Origin: Halobaculum marinum
Lineage (GTDB): Archaea > Halobacteriota > Halobacteria > Halobacteriales > Haloferacaceae
Direction of reading: 5' to 3'
NCBI RefSeq assembly: GCF_029338555.1
Contig: NZ_CP119989.1
Coordinates: 186,001-250,000, forward strand
Length of the DNA stretch: 64,000 nt
Under the pieces are notes generated by a model. That model had not been told where the DNA came from. It did not search any database and was given only the letters and a program-made list of their open reading frames with translations. Within the stretch, counting starts at the first letter, position 1. Every line of letters begins with the position of its first letter. The position numbers and the translations under genes were made by a program. This document shows, one piece after another, positions 20,062 through 59,782 of this stretch.

Positions 20062-20559
20062 ATGAACCGAGTCAACGCCGACGACGTCGACTGGGACGAG
20101 ACCGACCGGGGCGAGTCCGTGGGGTGGCGCCGCAAGCAACTGGCCGCGGCCGCCGACGGCGACCAACTCGGCTGTAGCCTGTACGAGTTGCCGCCCGGCA
20201 AGCGCGCGTGGCCGTACCACTACCACGCCGCAAACGAGGAGGCGCTGTACGTGCTCGCCGGCGCGGGGACGCTCCGGCACGCCGACGGGGAGACGGCGTT
20301 GCGCGCGGGCGACTACGTCGCACTCCCCGTCGGCGAGGACGGCGCCCACCGCGTGATCAACGACGGTGAGGACACCCTCCGCTACCTCGCGGTGTCGACG
20401 ATGCGGGACCCCGAGGTGCTCGTCTACCCCGACTCAGGCAAGGTGGGCGCGATGGCCGGCGCCCCGCCCGGCGGTGACGGCGAGCGTGACGTGGACGCGT
20501 ACTTCCGCCGCGACGACGCGGTCGACTACTGGGACGGCGAAGGGGAGGAAACGGGTTAG
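20062..20559 (+). CDS. cupin-domain protein
   Basis: 165-residue single-cupin protein. Metal ligands are seen in YHYHAANEEALYVLAGAGTL (the H-x-H-x(4)-E pattern) and a second motif in GEDGAHRVINDGEDTLRYLA. The tail has VLVYPDSGKVGAMAGAP and AYFRRDDAVDYWDGE, a combination common in halobacterial and proteobacterial cupins of unknown substrate, often annotated as glyoxalase- or mannose-phosphate-isomerase-like. CTACATTCC about 28 bases before the ATG suggests a leaderless message. Its TAG stop overlaps the TAA of the convergent FKBP gene by 3-4 bases. Confidence 0.85.
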   Translation: MNRVNADDVDWDETDRGESVGWRRKQLAAAADGDQLGCSLYELPPGKRAWPYHYHAANEEALYVLAGAGTLRHADGETALRAGDYVALPVGEDGAHRVINDGEDTLRYLAVSTMRDPEVLVYPDSGKVGAMAGAPPGGDGERDVDAYFRRDDAVDYWDGEGEETG

Positions 20560-21083
20560 GCGGCCTCGCCCGCGCCACCGGCGTCGGCGTGAGTGTCGTC
20601 TTCGGCGTGCACCTCCAGCACCCGGATCTCGAACTCGACGCGCCGACCCGCGAGTTCGTGGTTGAAGTCGACCGTCGCCTCGGCGTCGTCGACGGCGACG
20701 ATCCAGCCGACGTCGCCGCGCTCGCTCCGGACGAGGTCGTCGACCGCGGCGGTCGTGTCGCTGCGGGCCTCCAGTTCCTCGCGGTCGACCGTGACGACCG
20801 CGTCGTCGTCGCGGGCGCCGTACGCGTCCTCGGGGTCGAGCACGACCGTCTTCGTCTCGCCCGGTTCCATCCCCCGGACCGCCTCGTCGACACCGGGGAT
20901 GACGTGCCCCTCGCCGACGCGGAACTCCAACGGCACGAAGTCGCGGTGGTCGTGGTACACGCCCTCCTCGAGCGCCACGTCGACGTCGGTCGTCTCGAAC
21001 ACCTCGCCGGCGTCGTCGCCGTCGGCGAGTCGTCCCGTCAGGTGGACGATCGCGATCCGGCCGGGGAGGACGGTCGCGGTCAT
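20556..21083 (-). CDS. FKBP-type peptidyl-prolyl isomerase, SlyD-like
   Basis: Predicted 175-residue prolyl isomerase and chaperone. The FKBP domain is at the N-terminus (RIAIVHLTGRLADGDDAGEV, PLEFRVGEGHVIPGVDEAV, GMEPGETKTVVLDPEDAYG), with a SlyD-type inserted flap (residues 85-130) and a closing VDFNHELAGRRVEFEIRVLE. Its ATG overlaps the TGA of the sulfite-oxidase-like gene (ATGA), so the two are translated together. That suggests the isomerase helps folding of the sulfite oxidase or of its cofactor insertion, although FKBPs of this sort also act generally. Confidence 0.92.
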   Translation of the reverse strand: MTATVLPGRIAIVHLTGRLADGDDAGEVFETTDVDVALEEGVYHDHRDFVPLEFRVGEGHVIPGVDEAVRGMEPGETKTVVLDPEDAYGARDDDAVVTVDREELEARSDTTAAVDDLVRSERGDVGWIVAVDDAEATVDFNHELAGRRVEFEIRVLEVHAEDDTHADAGGAGEAA

Positions 21084-22585
21084 CGTTCCTCGACGGTGCA
21101 GGTCACCGCGTGGGCCATGTACGCGTTGTTGCCGTAGCCGCCCTGGTTCCACGGGAACTGGTCGTTCTCGATCCCCCGAAGCTGTTGGTCGGGCGCGGAG
21201 ATGGTCGCCGGCTGGGTGTAGCCGCGCTCGTCGGTCGCGCGCGAGGCGAGCGTGTACTCCCCCGGCTCCGGCGAGTCCCACACGTAGCGGAACTGCCGCC
21301 AGCCGGTCGCCTCCCCGGTGGGGCCGAAGAACTCCGCTTCGTTCCACGTGTCGCCGCCGTCGGTCGACACCTCCACCGCCTGCACCGCGTCGTCGCCGGC
21401 CCAGGCGACGCCGATCACCTCGACGGTGCCCGACGGCGACGGCGTGACGGTCTGCCCCTCGCCGGGGTAGCCGATGAGCGACTTCTCCACCTGGTCGTAC
21501 ATGTACGCGTTGCGGATCTCGCCGGTGCGCTCCATCTGCTCGCGCGTGTCGTACACCGGGAGGCGCTCGTACTGGGTCGCGCTGGCGTCCTCCTCGGGGT
21601 CGATCCGGTAGGAGTACTGCTGCCAGTGAGTGAACGTGCGCTGGCCGCTCTCGGGGGCGCCCTCCTCCTCCCACGGCTGGCCGATCACCATCGTCTCCAT
21701 GACGTGCATCCGGTCGACCCACTTCACGTTGTTACAGCCGAACCAGCCGGGCACGACCAGTCGCACCGGGAAGCCGTGGTCGGCCGACATCGGCGACCCG
21801 TTCATGTTGTACGCGAGGATGGTGTCGTCGAGCACCTTCGACATCGGGATCGAACGGGTGAACACGTCCTCGCCCTCGGGGTGCTCGCCACCCATGACGG
21901 TGAGGAAGTACTCCTCGCTCGTCTCGGCGCCGTACGCCTCGAGGATTGGCGCGATCGGCGTGCCCGTCCAGACGGTGTTGCCGACGGCGCCGTACGTCCA
22001 CTGGTTCCCCCCGACCTGCGGGTCGAAGTACGAGCGCCCGTTGCCCGCACACTGCATCGTGTGGGTGACCGACGCCGTGCCGAAGGAGTTCTTGATCTCC
22101 TCCATCGTAAGTTCGACCTCGCTGTCGACGAGGCCCGTCAGTGAGACGGTCCACTCGGACTCCTCGATACTCGGCGTCGGGTAGTGGTTCCGGATGTAGT
22201 GCTCCTCGCGCGAGGTGATGTACTCGGCGTACGTCGACCGGGCGGCTGCCTGGGCGTTCTCTGGCTCCGGGGAGAGGATCTCCAGCCCCGGGTACCGCTC
22301 GGCGAGCGACGGTCCCTCCTCCGTCGGCTCCTCCGTCTCCGTCGGTTCTTCGGTCGGCTCCTCCGTCTCCGTCGCCATCGGCTCCTCGGTCGCCGTTCCC
22401 GCGGTCGTCCCGTTCTCGGTCGACGGCGCGCTCCCACCACAGCCGGCGAGCACGCCCACGCCCGCCAAGGCGCCCGTCGCCGCGAGGAACCGTCGTCGTT
22501 CGAGGTACCGGCTCCGTGCGCCGGCGGTCGACTCCTCGCGGTCACCCTCGTCGCGTCCGGGGTCGCGTTCACTGCTCCGTGACAT
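21080..22585 (-). CDS. Tat-exported sulfite oxidase family molybdoenzyme, lipoprotein
   Basis: 501-residue molybdopterin oxidoreductase. The N-terminus carries a twin-arginine lipobox signal (RRRFLAATGALAGVGVLAGC) and then a Thr/Glu-rich linker of about 50 residues. The Mo-binding domain includes WTVSLTGLVDSEVELTMEEI, with the Mo-ligating Cys in THTMQCAGNGRSYFDP and RLVVPGWFGCNNVKWVDRM. A C-terminal Mo-co dimerisation domain follows (VEVIGVAWAGDDAVQAVEVS). No haem domain is present, so electrons must leave through a partner, most likely the adjacent halocyanin. The start chosen is the ATG at 22585 (MSRSSERDPGR); an upstream ATG would run through the 15-base repeat. The 3' end overlaps the FKBP gene. 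Confidence 0.92.
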   Translation of the reverse strand: MSRSSERDPGRDEGDREESTAGARSRYLERRRFLAATGALAGVGVLAGCGGSAPSTENGTTAGTATEEPMATETEEPTEEPTETEEPTEEGPSLAERYPGLEILSPEPENAQAAARSTYAEYITSREEHYIRNHYPTPSIEESEWTVSLTGLVDSEVELTMEEIKNSFGTASVTHTMQCAGNGRSYFDPQVGGNQWTYGAVGNTVWTGTPIAPILEAYGAETSEEYFLTVMGGEHPEGEDVFTRSIPMSKVLDDTILAYNMNGSPMSADHGFPVRLVVPGWFGCNNVKWVDRMHVMETMVIGQPWEEEGAPESGQRTFTHWQQYSYRIDPEEDASATQYERLPVYDTREQMERTGEIRNAYMYDQVEKSLIGYPGEGQTVTPSPSGTVEVIGVAWAGDDAVQAVEVSTDGGDTWNEAEFFGPTGEATGWRQFRYVWDSPEPGEYTLASRATDERGYTQPATISAPDQQLRGIENDQFPWNQGGYGNNAYMAHAVTCTVEER

Positions 22586-22622: not shown

Positions 22623-22637
22623 TTGGCCCACACCAAC
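22623..22637. promoter_or_regulatory. 15-base element (TTGG-n6-CCAAC), copy 1
   Basis: TTGGCCCACACCAAC, identical to the copy at 23203-23217. It is 38 bases upstream of the sulfite oxidase ATG, just beyond where the TATA/BRE region lies. The flanking TTGG/CCAA form a short dyad. The position is that of an activator site. Confidence 0.6.
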
Positions 22638-22660
22638 GCGGCGGCGCCGTCGGCGACGAA

Positions 22661-23164
22661 CTACTCGGAGACCTGGACGGTCCCGATCATCCCTTGGCCC
22701 GCGTGGGGGACGCAGACGTACACGTACTCGCCGGGGACGGTGAACGTGTGCTCGAACGTCTCGCCCGGCGGGAGGATCGCGAAGTGCTGTTCGTCCTCGT
22801 AGGAGGCGAACGGTTCGGCTCCGTCGGGGTTCGAACAGCGGGAGTCGGCGCTCGGCAGACTCGACACGTTGTGGCCAGGGCTCTCGAACGTCCACCTGAC
22901 GGTGTCGCCCACCGAGATCTCGACCAGGTCGGGGACGAAGCGGAGTCGTCCCTCCGGGCCGACGGCGACCTCCGTGACGCCCGCCGCCGGCGTCTGGGTC
23001 GCCGTCGGCGTCGGCTCTGGAGTCGGCTCCGGCGTCGGCGTCTCGGCGGTCGTCGCCGCCGTGCCGTCGCCGCCGTCCGCCCCACCCCCCGTACACCCGG
23101 CGAGCGTCGTGGCGGTGGCGGCGACGGCGGTCAGTCGAAGGAGTCCGCGTCTGTCGGTCCTCAT
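22661..23164 (-). CDS. halocyanin-like blue copper lipoprotein
   Basis: 167-residue plastocyanin-fold protein. A lipobox TLAGC follows the signal (RRGLLRLTAVAATATTLAGC), then a Thr/Pro/Glu-rich tether of about 35 residues. Copper ligands are visible: His in WTFESPGHNVSSLPS, and the Cys-His-Met set in EYVYVCVPHAGQGMIGTV. It is therefore a small membrane-tethered electron carrier on the outer face. It lies 75 bases upstream of the sulfite oxidase gene on the same strand and has the same 15-base element, 39 bases before its own ATG, plus an ATATATG box at about -28. It is the natural electron acceptor for that enzyme. Confidence 0.93.
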   Translation of the reverse strand: MRTDRRGLLRLTAVAATATTLAGCTGGGADGGDGTAATTAETPTPEPTPEPTPTATQTPAAGVTEVAVGPEGRLRFVPDLVEISVGDTVRWTFESPGHNVSSLPSADSRCSNPDGAEPFASYEDEQHFAILPPGETFEHTFTVPGEYVYVCVPHAGQGMIGTVQVSE

Positions 23165-23202
23165 CGGGCGGATCGAAGCGAGCGACGGACATATATCCTG
23201 AA

Positions 23203-23217
23203 TTGGCCCACACCAAC
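23203..23217. promoter_or_regulatory. 15-base element (TTGG-n6-CCAAC), copy 2
   Basis: Identical to the copy at 22623-22637. It lies 39 bases upstream of the halocyanin ATG, immediately upstream of the ATATAT box at about 23190-23196, and 155 bases before the divergent regulator's start. Confidence 0.6.
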
Positions 23218-23283: not shown

Positions 23284-23370
23284 ATGACGCGGAGGGGGGA
23301 CTTCCAGAACAGCCGCGGTGGGACAAGCGCGACCGCACCACTGTGGGGGGACGAGGGATGCGGGAGCTGA
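23284..23370 (+). CDS. possible short upstream ORF overlapping the regulator start
   Basis: 28 codons, MTRRGDFQNSRGGTSATAPL then WGDEGCGS. The ATG lies about 28 bases after a GGCTAATG box, the leaderless spacing, and the TGA at 23368-23370 overlaps the regulator's ATG (23358) out of frame by 13 bases. It could be a leader peptide or simply leader RNA. Confidence 0.3.
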   Translation: MTRRGDFQNSRGGTSATAPLWGDEGCGS

Positions 23371-24107
23371 CGTTCGACCTGGTGTACGAGCGGGGGGCCG
23401 ACCCGGTAGCGGACGTGTTCATCGAGTTCCCCTCGCTGTCGGCGAACGCGATCGCCAGTTGCGTCCGCCGCGACCGCCTGTGGCGTGTCGAGCGGTTCAC
23501 GGGACCGCGAGCGGCGCTCGACCGGGTGGAGCGACACCGGCTCGACCCGGACGCACCCCACGAGGAGATGACGGACACGGAGTGCCAGGCCGTGCGGGAA
23601 CACGGGGTGCTCGAGCGCACCCCGTCGACACTCGTCCTCTACACGTTCGTCACGAAACTCCACCAGTGTGACTCCGTGCTCGCGCAGGCGGCCCGCCGCC
23701 TCGACCTGGGGTTCGTCCTCCAGTCGCGGCGGCGCGAGCACCGCCACCAGTGGCGGCTGTTGTTGCGCTCTGCGACGAACGTCGGGGTGTTCCGCCGCGA
23801 GGCGGCCGCCCACCTGGACGATGGGATCCGCCTCGAGATCGGTCGGCTCGGCCCCGTCGACAGCTGGAACGACGACTCGCTCGCGACGGTGTCGCTGCCG
23901 CCCGAACAGCGCGAGACGCTCCGGGCGGCCGTCGACCGCGGCTACTACGAGACGCCCCGTGAGATCACGGTGAGCGACCTCGCCGACCGGCTCGACCTGC
24001 CGGCCTCGACCGTCTCCTACCGCCTGCGGCAGGCCGAGGCCCAACTGGCGAAGGGGTACCTCAGCCGGTTCGGGAGCGAGCGGGTGGTCGGCGACCCCGC
24101 CGACTGA
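23358..24107 (+). CDS. bat-type HTH-10 transcriptional regulator
   Basis: 249-residue member of the bacterio-opsin-activator (bat) family. The N-terminal part (MRELTFDLVYERGADPVADV ... CVRRDRLWRVERFTG) is a sensory half typical of the family. The C-terminal HTH-10 domain is at residues 190-245: LPPEQRETLRAAVDRGYYET, ITVSDLADRLDLPASTVSYR, LRQAEAQLAKGYLSRFG. A GTG 15 bases upstream is an alternative start. The gene is divergent from the halocyanin/sulfite oxidase genes that share a 15-base element, so it is the obvious candidate regulator of them. Its 5' leader carries a short upstream ORF. Confidence 0.9.
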   Translation: MRELTFDLVYERGADPVADVFIEFPSLSANAIASCVRRDRLWRVERFTGPRAALDRVERHRLDPDAPHEEMTDTECQAVREHGVLERTPSTLVLYTFVTKLHQCDSVLAQAARRLDLGFVLQSRRREHRHQWRLLLRSATNVGVFRREAAAHLDDGIRLEIGRLGPVDSWNDDSLATVSLPPEQRETLRAAVDRGYYETPREITVSDLADRLDLPASTVSYRLRQAEAQLAKGYLSRFGSERVVGDPAD

Positions 24108-24164: not shown

Positions 24165-24527
24165 GTGTCCGTTCCCCGTCTCGTGTACGACGACGACTGC
24201 GGGTTCTGTACGTTCTGCGTGTCGCACGCGCTGGACCTCGGCGAGTTCGAGGCCGTCGGCTTCTCGTCGATGGGCGACGACCTGCGCGCGCGCCTGCCCG
24301 CCGACTACGAGGAGTGCATGCACCTCGTCACCGACGACGCGGTGTACTCCTGCGGCGAGGCGGTCGAGCAGGTCGCCCGCCGTACCGGCGCCGCAGGGTG
24401 GTGGCTCACCGCCGGCGCGAAGGGACTGCCGAAGTACCCCACCGCACGCGAGAAACTGTACCGGTGGGCCGCCGACCGTCGAGGGCTGTGGGGGAAACTC
24501 GCCCGGCGAGAGTCGCTCCCGGAGTGA
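24165..24527 (+). CDS. DCC1-like thiol-disulfide oxidoreductase family (DUF393)
   Basis: 120-residue protein with the DUF393 start RLVYDDDCGFCTFCVSHALD, a thioredoxin-like CxxC arrangement, and the body GEFEAVGFSSMGDDLRARLP. LPKYPTAREKLYRWAADRRG is the typical tail. Family members are predicted thiol oxidoreductases of unknown partner. The GTG at 24165 keeps the diagnostic first strand. It follows the regulator by 57 bases on the same strand and could be part of that transcript. Confidence 0.83.
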   Translation: MSVPRLVYDDDCGFCTFCVSHALDLGEFEAVGFSSMGDDLRARLPADYEECMHLVTDDAVYSCGEAVEQVARRTGAAGWWLTAGAKGLPKYPTAREKLYRWAADRRGLWGKLARRESLPE

Positions 24528-58363: not shown

Positions 58364-59782
58364 ATGACAACCGGGACGCTGCGGCTCGCCACCCGCGGCT
58401 CCGACCTCGCGCTCCGACAGGCCGCCGGCGTACGGGAGGCGCTCTCCTCGCGCCGACGCGACGTGGAGGTGGTCGAGGTGGAGACGCGCGGCGACCGACT
58501 CGACGACGAACTGATCACCAGACTGGGGCGGACCGGCGCGTTCGTCCGCGCGCTCGACGAACGCGTGCTCGCGGGCGAGGTGGACGTCGCGGTCCACTCG
58601 CTGAAGGACATGCCCACCGAGATGCCCGACGACCTCGTCGTCGCCGCCGTCGGCGAACGCGCGCCCGCCGGTGACGTGCTCGTCACGCGCGAGGGCGGCG
58701 ACCTCGCCGACCTGCCGCGCGGATCCGTCGTTGGCACCTCCTCGCTGCGCCGGAAGGCGCAGGTACTCGCCGAGCGCCCCGACCTCGAGGTGCGACCGCT
58801 GCGGGGCAACGTCGACACCCGCCTCCAGAAGCTCATCGCGCCCGACCTCCAGGCCGAGCACGAGCGCCGCGTCGAAGCCGAGGCCGACCGCAAGGGCCAG
58901 GCGGCGGACTTCAGGGAGGCCGACGCCGAGTTCGAGCGCACGGTCGAGGAGTGGTTCGACGACCTCTCGGAGTTCCAGCGCGCCGCGATGGAGCACGAAC
59001 TCGACCACGAGTACGACGCCATCGTGCTCGCCGAAGCCGGCCTGCGCCGCTCGGACCTGTTCTACCGCGACGAGTACGAAGTCGAGCGCCTCGACCGCGC
59101 AGACCACGTGCCCGCGCCCGGACAGGGCGCCGTCGCCGTCACCGCCAGCGACCCCGACGTGATCGAGGTCGTCCGCAAGGCGCTGGACCACGAGCCGACG
59201 CGCGTCGCCACCAGCGTCGAGCGTACCGTGCTCGCGGAGTTGGGCGGCGGCTGTATCGCCCCCATCGGCGTGAACGCGCTCGTGCAGGGCGAGCACGTCA
59301 AAACCCGCGTCCGGGTGCTGTCGGCCGACGGCGACACCGAGGTGTCGGCGACGCGCGACCTCCCGCTTCGCACGTACCGCGAGGCCGCCGCCGAGTTCGC
59401 CGCGTCGCTGCGCGAGCAGGGCGCCGCCGAACTCATCAGCGCCGCCAAGCGCGCGGCGGACGCCGCGACCGCGGACGAGGACGACACCACCGACGACGCC
59501 GACATCACCGACGACGCCACCGCGGATGTCGACGCGATGGAGGAGGACACCGACACCACCGCAGACGACGCCGATACCAGCGACGACGACACCGCAGACG
59601 ACGCCGATACCAGCGACGACGACACCGCAGACGACGCCGATACCAGCGACGACGACACCGCAGACGACGCCGACACCAGCGACGACGACACCGCAGACGA
59701 CGCTGACACCAGCGACGACGACACCGCAGACGACGGCTGGCCGGAGGTCGGCTCCACAGACACGGAGGACACGGAGGAGTAG
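58364..59782 (+). CDS. hemC: porphobilinogen deaminase with acidic repeat tail
   Basis: 472 residues, much longer than typical (about 310). Polymerises four porphobilinogens to hydroxymethylbilane. Core motifs: TLRLATRGSDLALRQAAGVR, VAVHSLKDMPTEMPDDLVV, VVGTSSLRRKAQVLAERPDL, and the dipyrromethane-binding Cys in LAELGGGCIAPIGVNALVQG. A halobacterial insert of about 55 residues (ERRVEAEADRKGQAADFREA ... RAAMEHELDHEYD) sits before LAEAGLRRSDL. The last 90 residues are an acidic tail, with an 11-residue unit rich in Asp/Thr/Ser repeated five times. CCGTTTTCC is at about -28. Confidence 0.95.
   Translation: MTTGTLRLATRGSDLALRQAAGVREALSSRRRDVEVVEVETRGDRLDDELITRLGRTGAFVRALDERVLAGEVDVAVHSLKDMPTEMPDDLVVAAVGERAPAGDVLVTREGGDLADLPRGSVVGTSSLRRKAQVLAERPDLEVRPLRGNVDTRLQKLIAPDLQAEHERRVEAEADRKGQAADFREADAEFERTVEEWFDDLSEFQRAAMEHELDHEYDAIVLAEAGLRRSDLFYRDEYEVERLDRADHVPAPGQGAVAVTASDPDVIEVVRKALDHEPTRVATSVERTVLAELGGGCIAPIGVNALVQGEHVKTRVRVLSADGDTEVSATRDLPLRTYREAAAEFAASLREQGAAELISAAKRAADAATADEDDTTDDADITDDATADVDAMEEDTDTTADDADTSDDDTADDADTSDDDTADDADTSDDDTADDADTSDDDTADDADTSDDDTADDGWPEVGSTDTEDTEE
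59558..59734 (+). repeat. 33-base tandem repeat coding for the hemC tail
   Basis: Five full copies of a 33-base unit start at 59558, 59591, 59624, 59657 and 59690, with a 12-base partial copy from 59723. The unit encodes TADDADTSDDD. Copies differ by one or two synonymous bases (GAT/GAC, GCC/GCT). Confidence 0.9.

Follow-up and report, generated by a model that had tools for sequence, protein, structure and literature searches.

A palindromic element shared by two promoters of a sulfite-oxidase-like locus in Halobaculum marinum and its probable link to the adjacent PF24281/HTH_10 regulator

The window, which is the whole 64,000-nt stretch of Halobaculum marinum DNA analysed here, contains a 15-base element, TTGGCCCACACCAAC, in two mismatch-free copies at 22623-22637 and 23203-23217. 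A sequence-only reading had picked out this identical pair, taken the TTGG and CCAA half-sites for a dyad, and tied the element to a regulator gene lying divergently beside the second copy. Is the element an operator and, if so, of which protein? The pair and the dyad were both borne out: the 15-mer encloses a 14-bp dyad, TTGG-N6-CCAA. The features of the locus, in window positions, are as follows.

20559-21080, minus strand: FKBP-type prolyl isomerase gene, downstream of the SOX gene
21080-22585, minus strand: gene of a sulfite-oxidase-like molybdoenzyme (SOX), with Oxidored_molyb PF00174 and Mo-co_dimer PF03404
22611-22616, minus strand: putative TATA-like box of the SOX promoter, CTTCTT, weak, 7th to 12th base after the dyad, placed by ungapped alignment
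22623-22636, minus strand: putative operator dyad of the SOX promoter, TTGGTGTGGGCCAA on the minus strand; base 22637 completes the 15-mer
22661-23164, minus strand: gene of a halocyanin-like blue copper protein (HCY), PF00127, with a lipobox recognised by eye
23191-23196, minus strand: putative TATA-like box of the HCY promoter, ATATAT, placed by ungapped alignment
23203-23216, minus strand: putative operator dyad of the HCY promoter, TTGGTGTGGGCCAA; base 23217 completes the 15-mer
23358-24107, plus strand: regulator gene, PF24281 (HVO_2928_N) plus HTH_10, divergent and adjoining the second dyad

SOX scores 173.1 bits against PF00174 (cut-off 24) and 236.2 bits against the NCBIfam equivalog for SorT sulfite dehydrogenase (cut-off 570); by these models it is a member of the sulfite-oxidase superfamily and not a SorT equivalog. 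HCY passes PF00127 (61.4 bits, cut-off 21.2) and falls below the halocyanin model TIGR03102 (50.4 bits, cut-off 93.8), so that "halocyanin" here means a haloarchaeal blue copper protein. Halocyanin is reported to act as the one-electron carrier of haloarchaea (PMC8305020), a role that would suit HCY as the electron acceptor of SOX. The SOX start was taken as ATG 22585, at the conserved distance from the dyad, and not as the mechanical TTG 22636 inside the element; for the regulator, ATG 23358 fits the MREL start of the family by alignment and was taken in place of GTG 23343 of the ORF list. With these starts the gap from element to ATG is 37 nt for SOX and 38 nt for HCY (ATG 23164), each one less than the 38 and 39 bases given by the sequence-only reading. 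The FKBP-type isomerase gene, which adjoins SOX in the remaining 12 regulator-linked loci too, is probably co-transcribed with it. Directly after the regulator gene lies a gene for a DCC1-like thiol-disulfide oxidoreductase (24165-24527), found at the same place in loci L010 and L039.

How much does the repetition itself tell? The exact 15-mer occurs twice in the whole genome (3,506,531 bases), with no further place at one mismatch and eight at two mismatches, and TTGG-N6-CCAA is found at 7 places versus 27 for a reversed control pattern. The stricter form TTGGYN4RCCAA matches both promoters and one of the five remaining TTGG-N6-CCAA places, a site between two convergent gene ends in the ORF list. 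Many scattered copies without a promoter link, which would have spoken against a regulatory role, were thus not seen. The same reading had also called the exact repeat improbable by chance. This is too strong for the bare repeat, as the window census contains 6 further dispersed direct repeats of 15-21 bases spaced 30-1000 nt apart; a 15-mer repeated within 1 kb is common in this window, so repetition alone is weak evidence and it is promoter position and conservation in other genomes that make the element significant. These repeats are what might recommend chance, or a functionless duplicated promoter fragment, as the origin of the pair, but the sequence flanking the two copies differs, and conservation of the site in 13 loci with a variable centre (see below) already contradicts such an origin, to which we give hardly any credence. 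A 33-bp tandem repeat array was also recorded at window positions 59557-59720.

Relatives of the regulator were sought in 392 genomes of the order, of which 314 gave a match at E 1e-20, with up to six candidates scored per genome. In thirteen loci a regulator of the window's clade has HCY and SOX genes close by: the window itself, L039-L042 and L106-L113, of which L106 and L107 carry one species name and L112 comes from Haloferax marinum. Inspection of their 26 HCY and SOX promoters shows TTGKYN4RMCAA at 9 or more of its 10 fixed positions in every one, 18 with 10/10 and 8 with one mismatch (HCY and SOX alike in L040 and L110, SOX alone in L041, L106, L107 and L109), while among 10,400 dinucleotide shuffles of the 110-bp upstream regions at least 9 positions are matched in 1.3% and all 10 in 0.03%. 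Counted by gene, the site keeps its position in every one of the 13 SOX promoters (exact in 8, one mismatch in 5) and likewise in all 13 HCY promoters, where 10 sites are full TTGG-N6-CCAA, one is TTGT-N6-ACAA and 2 have one mismatch; the HCY promoter of L111 reads TTGTCGTGCGACAA. The distance from dyad end to ATG is 37-39 nt for SOX and 38-45 nt for HCY, with start codons picked by hand and an alternative ATG closer to the dyad for HCY of L106, L107 and L111, and another ATG also for SOX of L107. The closest named relative by identity is Halobaculum litoreum (L108, 90%), where the regulator at L108:6001-6747 was matched in three pieces, so that the gene may be frame-disrupted or the sequence may contain errors.

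An ungapped alignment of the 26 promoters, anchored on the dyad, shows T at the 8th base after it in 24, A at the 11th in 23 and T at the 12th in 26, which in sequence terms is a TATA-like box at one fixed distance from the dyad. The earlier placement of the site just upstream of the TATA/BRE region therefore agrees with all 26 promoters. The outer bases and the Y/R pair are conserved, the four central bases vary, and all 26 sites carry C or T at base 5; conserved outer bases around a variable centre are what would be expected of a dimer site. A short inverted repeat upstream of start codons could in principle be an RNA-level signal in the 5' leader instead of a DNA operator; a dyad upstream of the predicted TATA-like box in 26 aligned promoters should not be transcribed from there, however, and we regard such a signal as extremely improbable.

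We then compared SOX loci with and without the regulator clade, using 30 loci of the 65 listed SOX matches. The exact dyad is present in 6 of the 7 loci with the regulator clade, the seventh having one mismatch at both promoters, and in 0 of the 23 loci without it (locus sequence examined), a control set that includes three loci with no halocyanin match in the locus (L086, L103 and L104). Among relatives ordered by E-value, with up to six candidates scored per genome, no regulator above 50% identity was found in the other genomes of the 30-locus set. Fisher's exact test for 7/7 (one-mismatch locus counted) versus 0/23 gives 4.9e-7, a value that overstates independence, as the two sets differ in SOX relatedness: among the matches listed, regulator-linked SOX proteins are 71-91% identical to that of the window versus at most 69% for the others. 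The regulator-linked proteins are also the nearest SOX homologues, so the presence/absence contrast is confounded by descent. Matches at the 9/10 level occur in 6 of the 23 regulator-less loci anywhere in 1,620 bp, roughly as expected from the shuffle rate; those of L095 and L096 (TTAGCGCACGCCAA) could be real sites for other PF24281-family regulators of those genomes. Six related genomes have 28 strict dyad places, of which only 8 belong to HCY or SOX promoters; the motif by itself therefore lacks specificity. At 18 loci (L193-L210) of these 28 places, 7 sites have the ATG of an ORF of at least 90 aa 30-50 nt away, and 6 of these 7 are HCY or SOX; no broad trans regulon emerged from these 18 places. 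The seventh, a strict dyad at L194:1501 (genome G307), precedes the ATG of a lipoprotein-like gene (288 aa) by 35 nt and may mark another target.

Does the dyad follow the SOX operon or the regulator family? The best 80 of 197 relatives from named genome contigs (regulator identity 35-90%) were searched in a near-regulator zone of 600 bp 5' or 700 bp 3' of the regulator gene, its end being set by common length for most loci and the near-identical L106/L107 and L180-L182 being retained. TTGGN6CCAA lies in this zone in 61 of the 80 loci and the exact dyad is absent from it in 19; there are 64 sites in the near-regulator 104 kb versus 18 in the other 800 kb, and several of these 18 also precede target genes. 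Of 1,280 tetranucleotide palindromes with gaps of 4-8, it is the one present in the most loci; at any other gap in the range 0-12 the TTGG/CCAA pair yields 0-7 sites versus 64. In 55 of the 80 loci the dyad stands 36-38 nt before the ATG of an HMA-motif gene, with 53 of 56 such starts at exactly 37 nt, and TAT occupies the 9th to 11th base after the dyad in 54, 55 and 51 of these 56 promoters. The protein of L133 matches an E1-E2 ATPase with an HMA domain in Pfam, the other HMA-type genes being assigned by motif and length. Dyads also precede COX1 by 37 nt in L127 and by 41 nt in L139, the gene of a sulfide-dehydrogenase-like flavoprotein by 45 nt in L053, and the GTG of a DsbA/thioredoxin-like protein gene by 40 nt in L059. 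Descent of the SOX operon alone fails as an explanation, since distant relatives carry the dyad at other targets. In Halopiger goleimassiliensis, six tandem 35-bp copies of operator plus TATA (TTGGAATACTCCAACGAAGGCTTATCGAGAGACGG) stand at L128:8692-8880 upstream of an HMA-motif ATPase gene; the last copy diverges after the TATA, and the array looks like an amplified promoter.

The regulator tree was built from 110 of 111 rows, L108 (three tblastn pieces) being too short, and 57 of its 107 inner branches are well supported; the alignment omitted identical regulator sequences as well as L111 and L112, which duplicate G268 and G379. In the tree all 12 SOX-clade rows fall together (support 100/96), and among their relatives are two groups, one in which the regulator gene lies between genes for a YeiH-type protein (PF03601) and a rhodanese (PF00581), and one divergent from genes for SBP56 (PF05694), which we take to be a methanethiol oxidase, and a 2Fe-2S protein. 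Regulatory regions of these sister clades carry TTGTCGTACGACAA, TTGTCGAGCGACAA and similar TTGT-N6-ACAA variants, in which the outer TTG/CAA and the length are unchanged and base 4 goes from G to T, with TTGG retained in some members. Six loci of the YeiH/rhodanese clade have two tandem operators 16-17 bp apart (L049:9571, L061:6228, L067:7044, L069:10245, L070:6764 and L072:9463). The H. marinum genome has a single TTGTYN4RACAA, at C3:119853 (L075:5854), about 1.6 kb upstream of the second PF24281 gene on contig C3; it immediately precedes a DsbA-like ORF, and a NosD/NosL-like gene lies divergently on its other side. A requirement for a strictly symmetrical 6-base core was tried and rejected, as the core is loose in the SOX clade. 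With a filter asking for 3 of 4 inner pairs, 72 of 117 loci have near-regulator sites, at a density of 80 in 374 kb versus 20 in 1,166 kb, and most SOX-clade sites are missed.

The core also varies with the protein. Residue 225 is the fifth residue of the recognition helix predicted from the model, and 51 of the 52 labelled rows with Ser225 have a pyrimidine at dyad base 5, the single Ser225/A row (L066) being classed from a site inside a coding frame and the SOX-clade rows being entered collectively as Y at that base. Rows with Thr, Ala or Asn at 225 have A in 30 of 30 cases, and two Gln rows have C or T. The Thr/AATATT set is mostly one clade, so the covariation is supportive and not independent evidence.

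These observations bear on whether a different, common haloarchaeal protein binds the dyad, with PF24281 genes lying nearby only through conservation of the operons. Other readers exist, as 27 HTH_10 matches were counted in the genome, 26 of them above the cut-off, and the regulator-linked SOX operons do form one related group. Yet dyads of the same architecture follow the family to HMA-type ATPase, YeiH/rhodanese, SBP56, COX1 and DsbA-like genes, their core changes with the recognition-helix residue, and the 23 SOX loci lacking the clade lack the exact dyad, which leaves a different binder quite improbable. The sequence-only link between element and divergent regulator is supported by the 26 linked promoters, by the unlinked SOX loci and by the same dyad near the targets of the regulator's relatives. 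We estimate a probability of about 85% that the two copies are operators for the regulator encoded at 23358-24107, one per promoter, and that HCY and SOX are thereby co-expressed.

What kind of regulator would this be? It matches PF24281 at residues 8-175 (178.1 bits, cut-off 27) and HTH_10 PF04967 at residues 187-236 (57.9 bits, cut-off 23.1), with no PAS or GAF match at E 0.001 among the 7 Pfam families listed. The earlier description as a bat-type gene divergent beside the second copy holds for its orientation, its adjacency and its Bat-like HTH_10, but not for the N-terminal half: by these domain models it is not Bat proper, which has PAS and GAF. Two PF24281 matches only occur in the genome, and in 14 control genomes a match was found in Haloferax volcanii alone. 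An AlphaFold2 model from 39 sequences (mean pLDDT 84.9) has two successive strand-helix-strand-strand-helix-strand units followed by a C-terminal helical HTH part. In this model the N-terminal domain resembles Thermoplasma Ta1207 (Z 11.4, rmsd 3.4 A, 144 aligned residues) and the HTH resembles sigma region 4 (Z up to 8.3); neither fold match gives a hint of a ligand. Foldseek with the model returned no solved structure below E 0.001, and a sequence search of solved structures returned one chain at E 0.21, which is not relevant. Cys81 is kept in 109 of 111 regulator rows and Cys109 in 100 of 111, the latter being replaced in at least one SOX-clade member (L042). In the aligned rows inspected, the metal and YeiH/rhodanese clades have an extra cysteine before Cys81 and the clade of the window is without it.

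The sites, their geometry, their tie to the regulator clade and their recurrence throughout the family are read from the sequences; from them we infer physical binding, by a dimer with one HTH per TTGGY half of TTGGYN4RCCAA. The dimer would sit at about -51 to -38 from the start codon, a placement that presumes transcripts starting at the ATG, and about 6 bases upstream of a weak TATA-like box, where it would recruit TBP/TFB as an activator. The placement and the weak SOX box favour an activator aiding TBP/TFB over a repressor. A repressor on the same dyads would block TFB at the BRE beside the TATA and be relieved by the signal; the dyad ends about 6-8 bases before the TATA-like box, near the seat of TFB, and the metal-ATPase branch might be derepressed by metal. 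Nevertheless, the site lies upstream of the predicted box and not over the box or the start, the weak SOX box in the window suits activation, and activation is the role described for the related HTH_10 proteins Bat, DmsR and NarO (PMC1447603; PMC11218638). Repression is accordingly the less favoured mode, and we consider it unlikely.

The N-terminal domain might sense a sulfur-linked or redox signal via Cys81 and Cys109, most simply sulfite or another reactive sulfur species, with SOX oxidising sulfite and passing its electrons to the halocyanin. Judged by the targets of the clade and of its sisters, the signals may be reactive sulfur species or thiophilic metals, which the conserved cysteines would detect. 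Sulfite is plausible by analogy with bacterial sulfite-oxidising enzymes: PMC6527743 gives sulfite as the inducing signal for SorT/SorA (Sinorhizobium, Starkeya), whose operons likewise have a dedicated regulator gene beside the enzyme gene, and its region figure includes azurin and cytochrome c among the abbreviations. Regulation in these bacteria falls to an ECF sigma factor that recognises -35/-10 elements, whereas the window has an archaeal HTH_10 protein, a palindrome upstream of a predicted TATA-like box, and a SOX far under the SorT cut-off.

Among haloarchaeal systems, the Bat/bop UAS consensus has a different half-site order from TTGG-N6-CCAA, and bop responds to light and oxygen. The likeness to Halobacterium lies in an HTH-type activator and a UAS 5' of bop and near two coordinately regulated genes, as given in PMC1447603. 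NarO/DmsR-type regulators resemble the one studied here in being Bat-like without PAS/GAF, and are linked to respiratory genes including halocyanins (PMC11218638). The same paper describes a dyad-like promoter motif of Haloferax mediterranei denitrification genes, CGAAYATDKTYG, and calls its binding protein undisclosed; its half-sites are CGAA...TYG in contrast to TTGG...CCAA here, and compared by eye TTGGCCCACACCAAC does not fit that consensus. For the PF24281 family, to which both the window regulator and the relative tested belong, HVO_2928 is named in a work titled on RNA processing sites, and a binding site was not found in the literature searched. Nor did that literature, which covered few subscription papers, contain TTGGAATATTCCAA, TTGGNNNNNNCCAA, TTGG-N6-CCAA, TTGTCGTACGACAA or TTGGCGCACGCCAA, or a precedent for a dedicated archaeal sulfite-oxidation regulator. 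Regulators of this class, haloarchaeal HTH_10 proteins that have a dyad-like site upstream of their targets, are known; the literature searched contained neither this particular site nor its geometry across the family or its variants in individual clades.

The best reading of the locus is a two-promoter sulfite-oxidation regulon of the adjacent regulator, set within a family-wide operator code. A broader proposal, which we offer tentatively and at somewhat less than even odds, is that PF24281 proteins form a haloarchaeal family of sensors that use cysteines to detect sulfur species and thiophilic metals and recognise operators of one common pattern (TTGK-N6-MCAA, set 6-8 bases from the TATA and about 37 nt from a leaderless ATG), that base 5 and residue 225 changed in step while the family came to control metal efflux, terminal oxidases and the oxidation of sulfide, methanethiol and sulfite, and that the window member would be a dedicated archaeal sulfite-oxidation regulator. 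This genome is rich in HTH_10 regulators, as the count above illustrates, and few such regulators have an assigned site in the literature searched. One HTH_10 family here gains a predicted site, geometry and target set, testable in a model haloarchaeon, as Haloferax volcanii has PF24281. An uncharacterised regulator becomes linked to sulfite oxidation, and the family would provide a natural series of operator changes paired with one helix residue.
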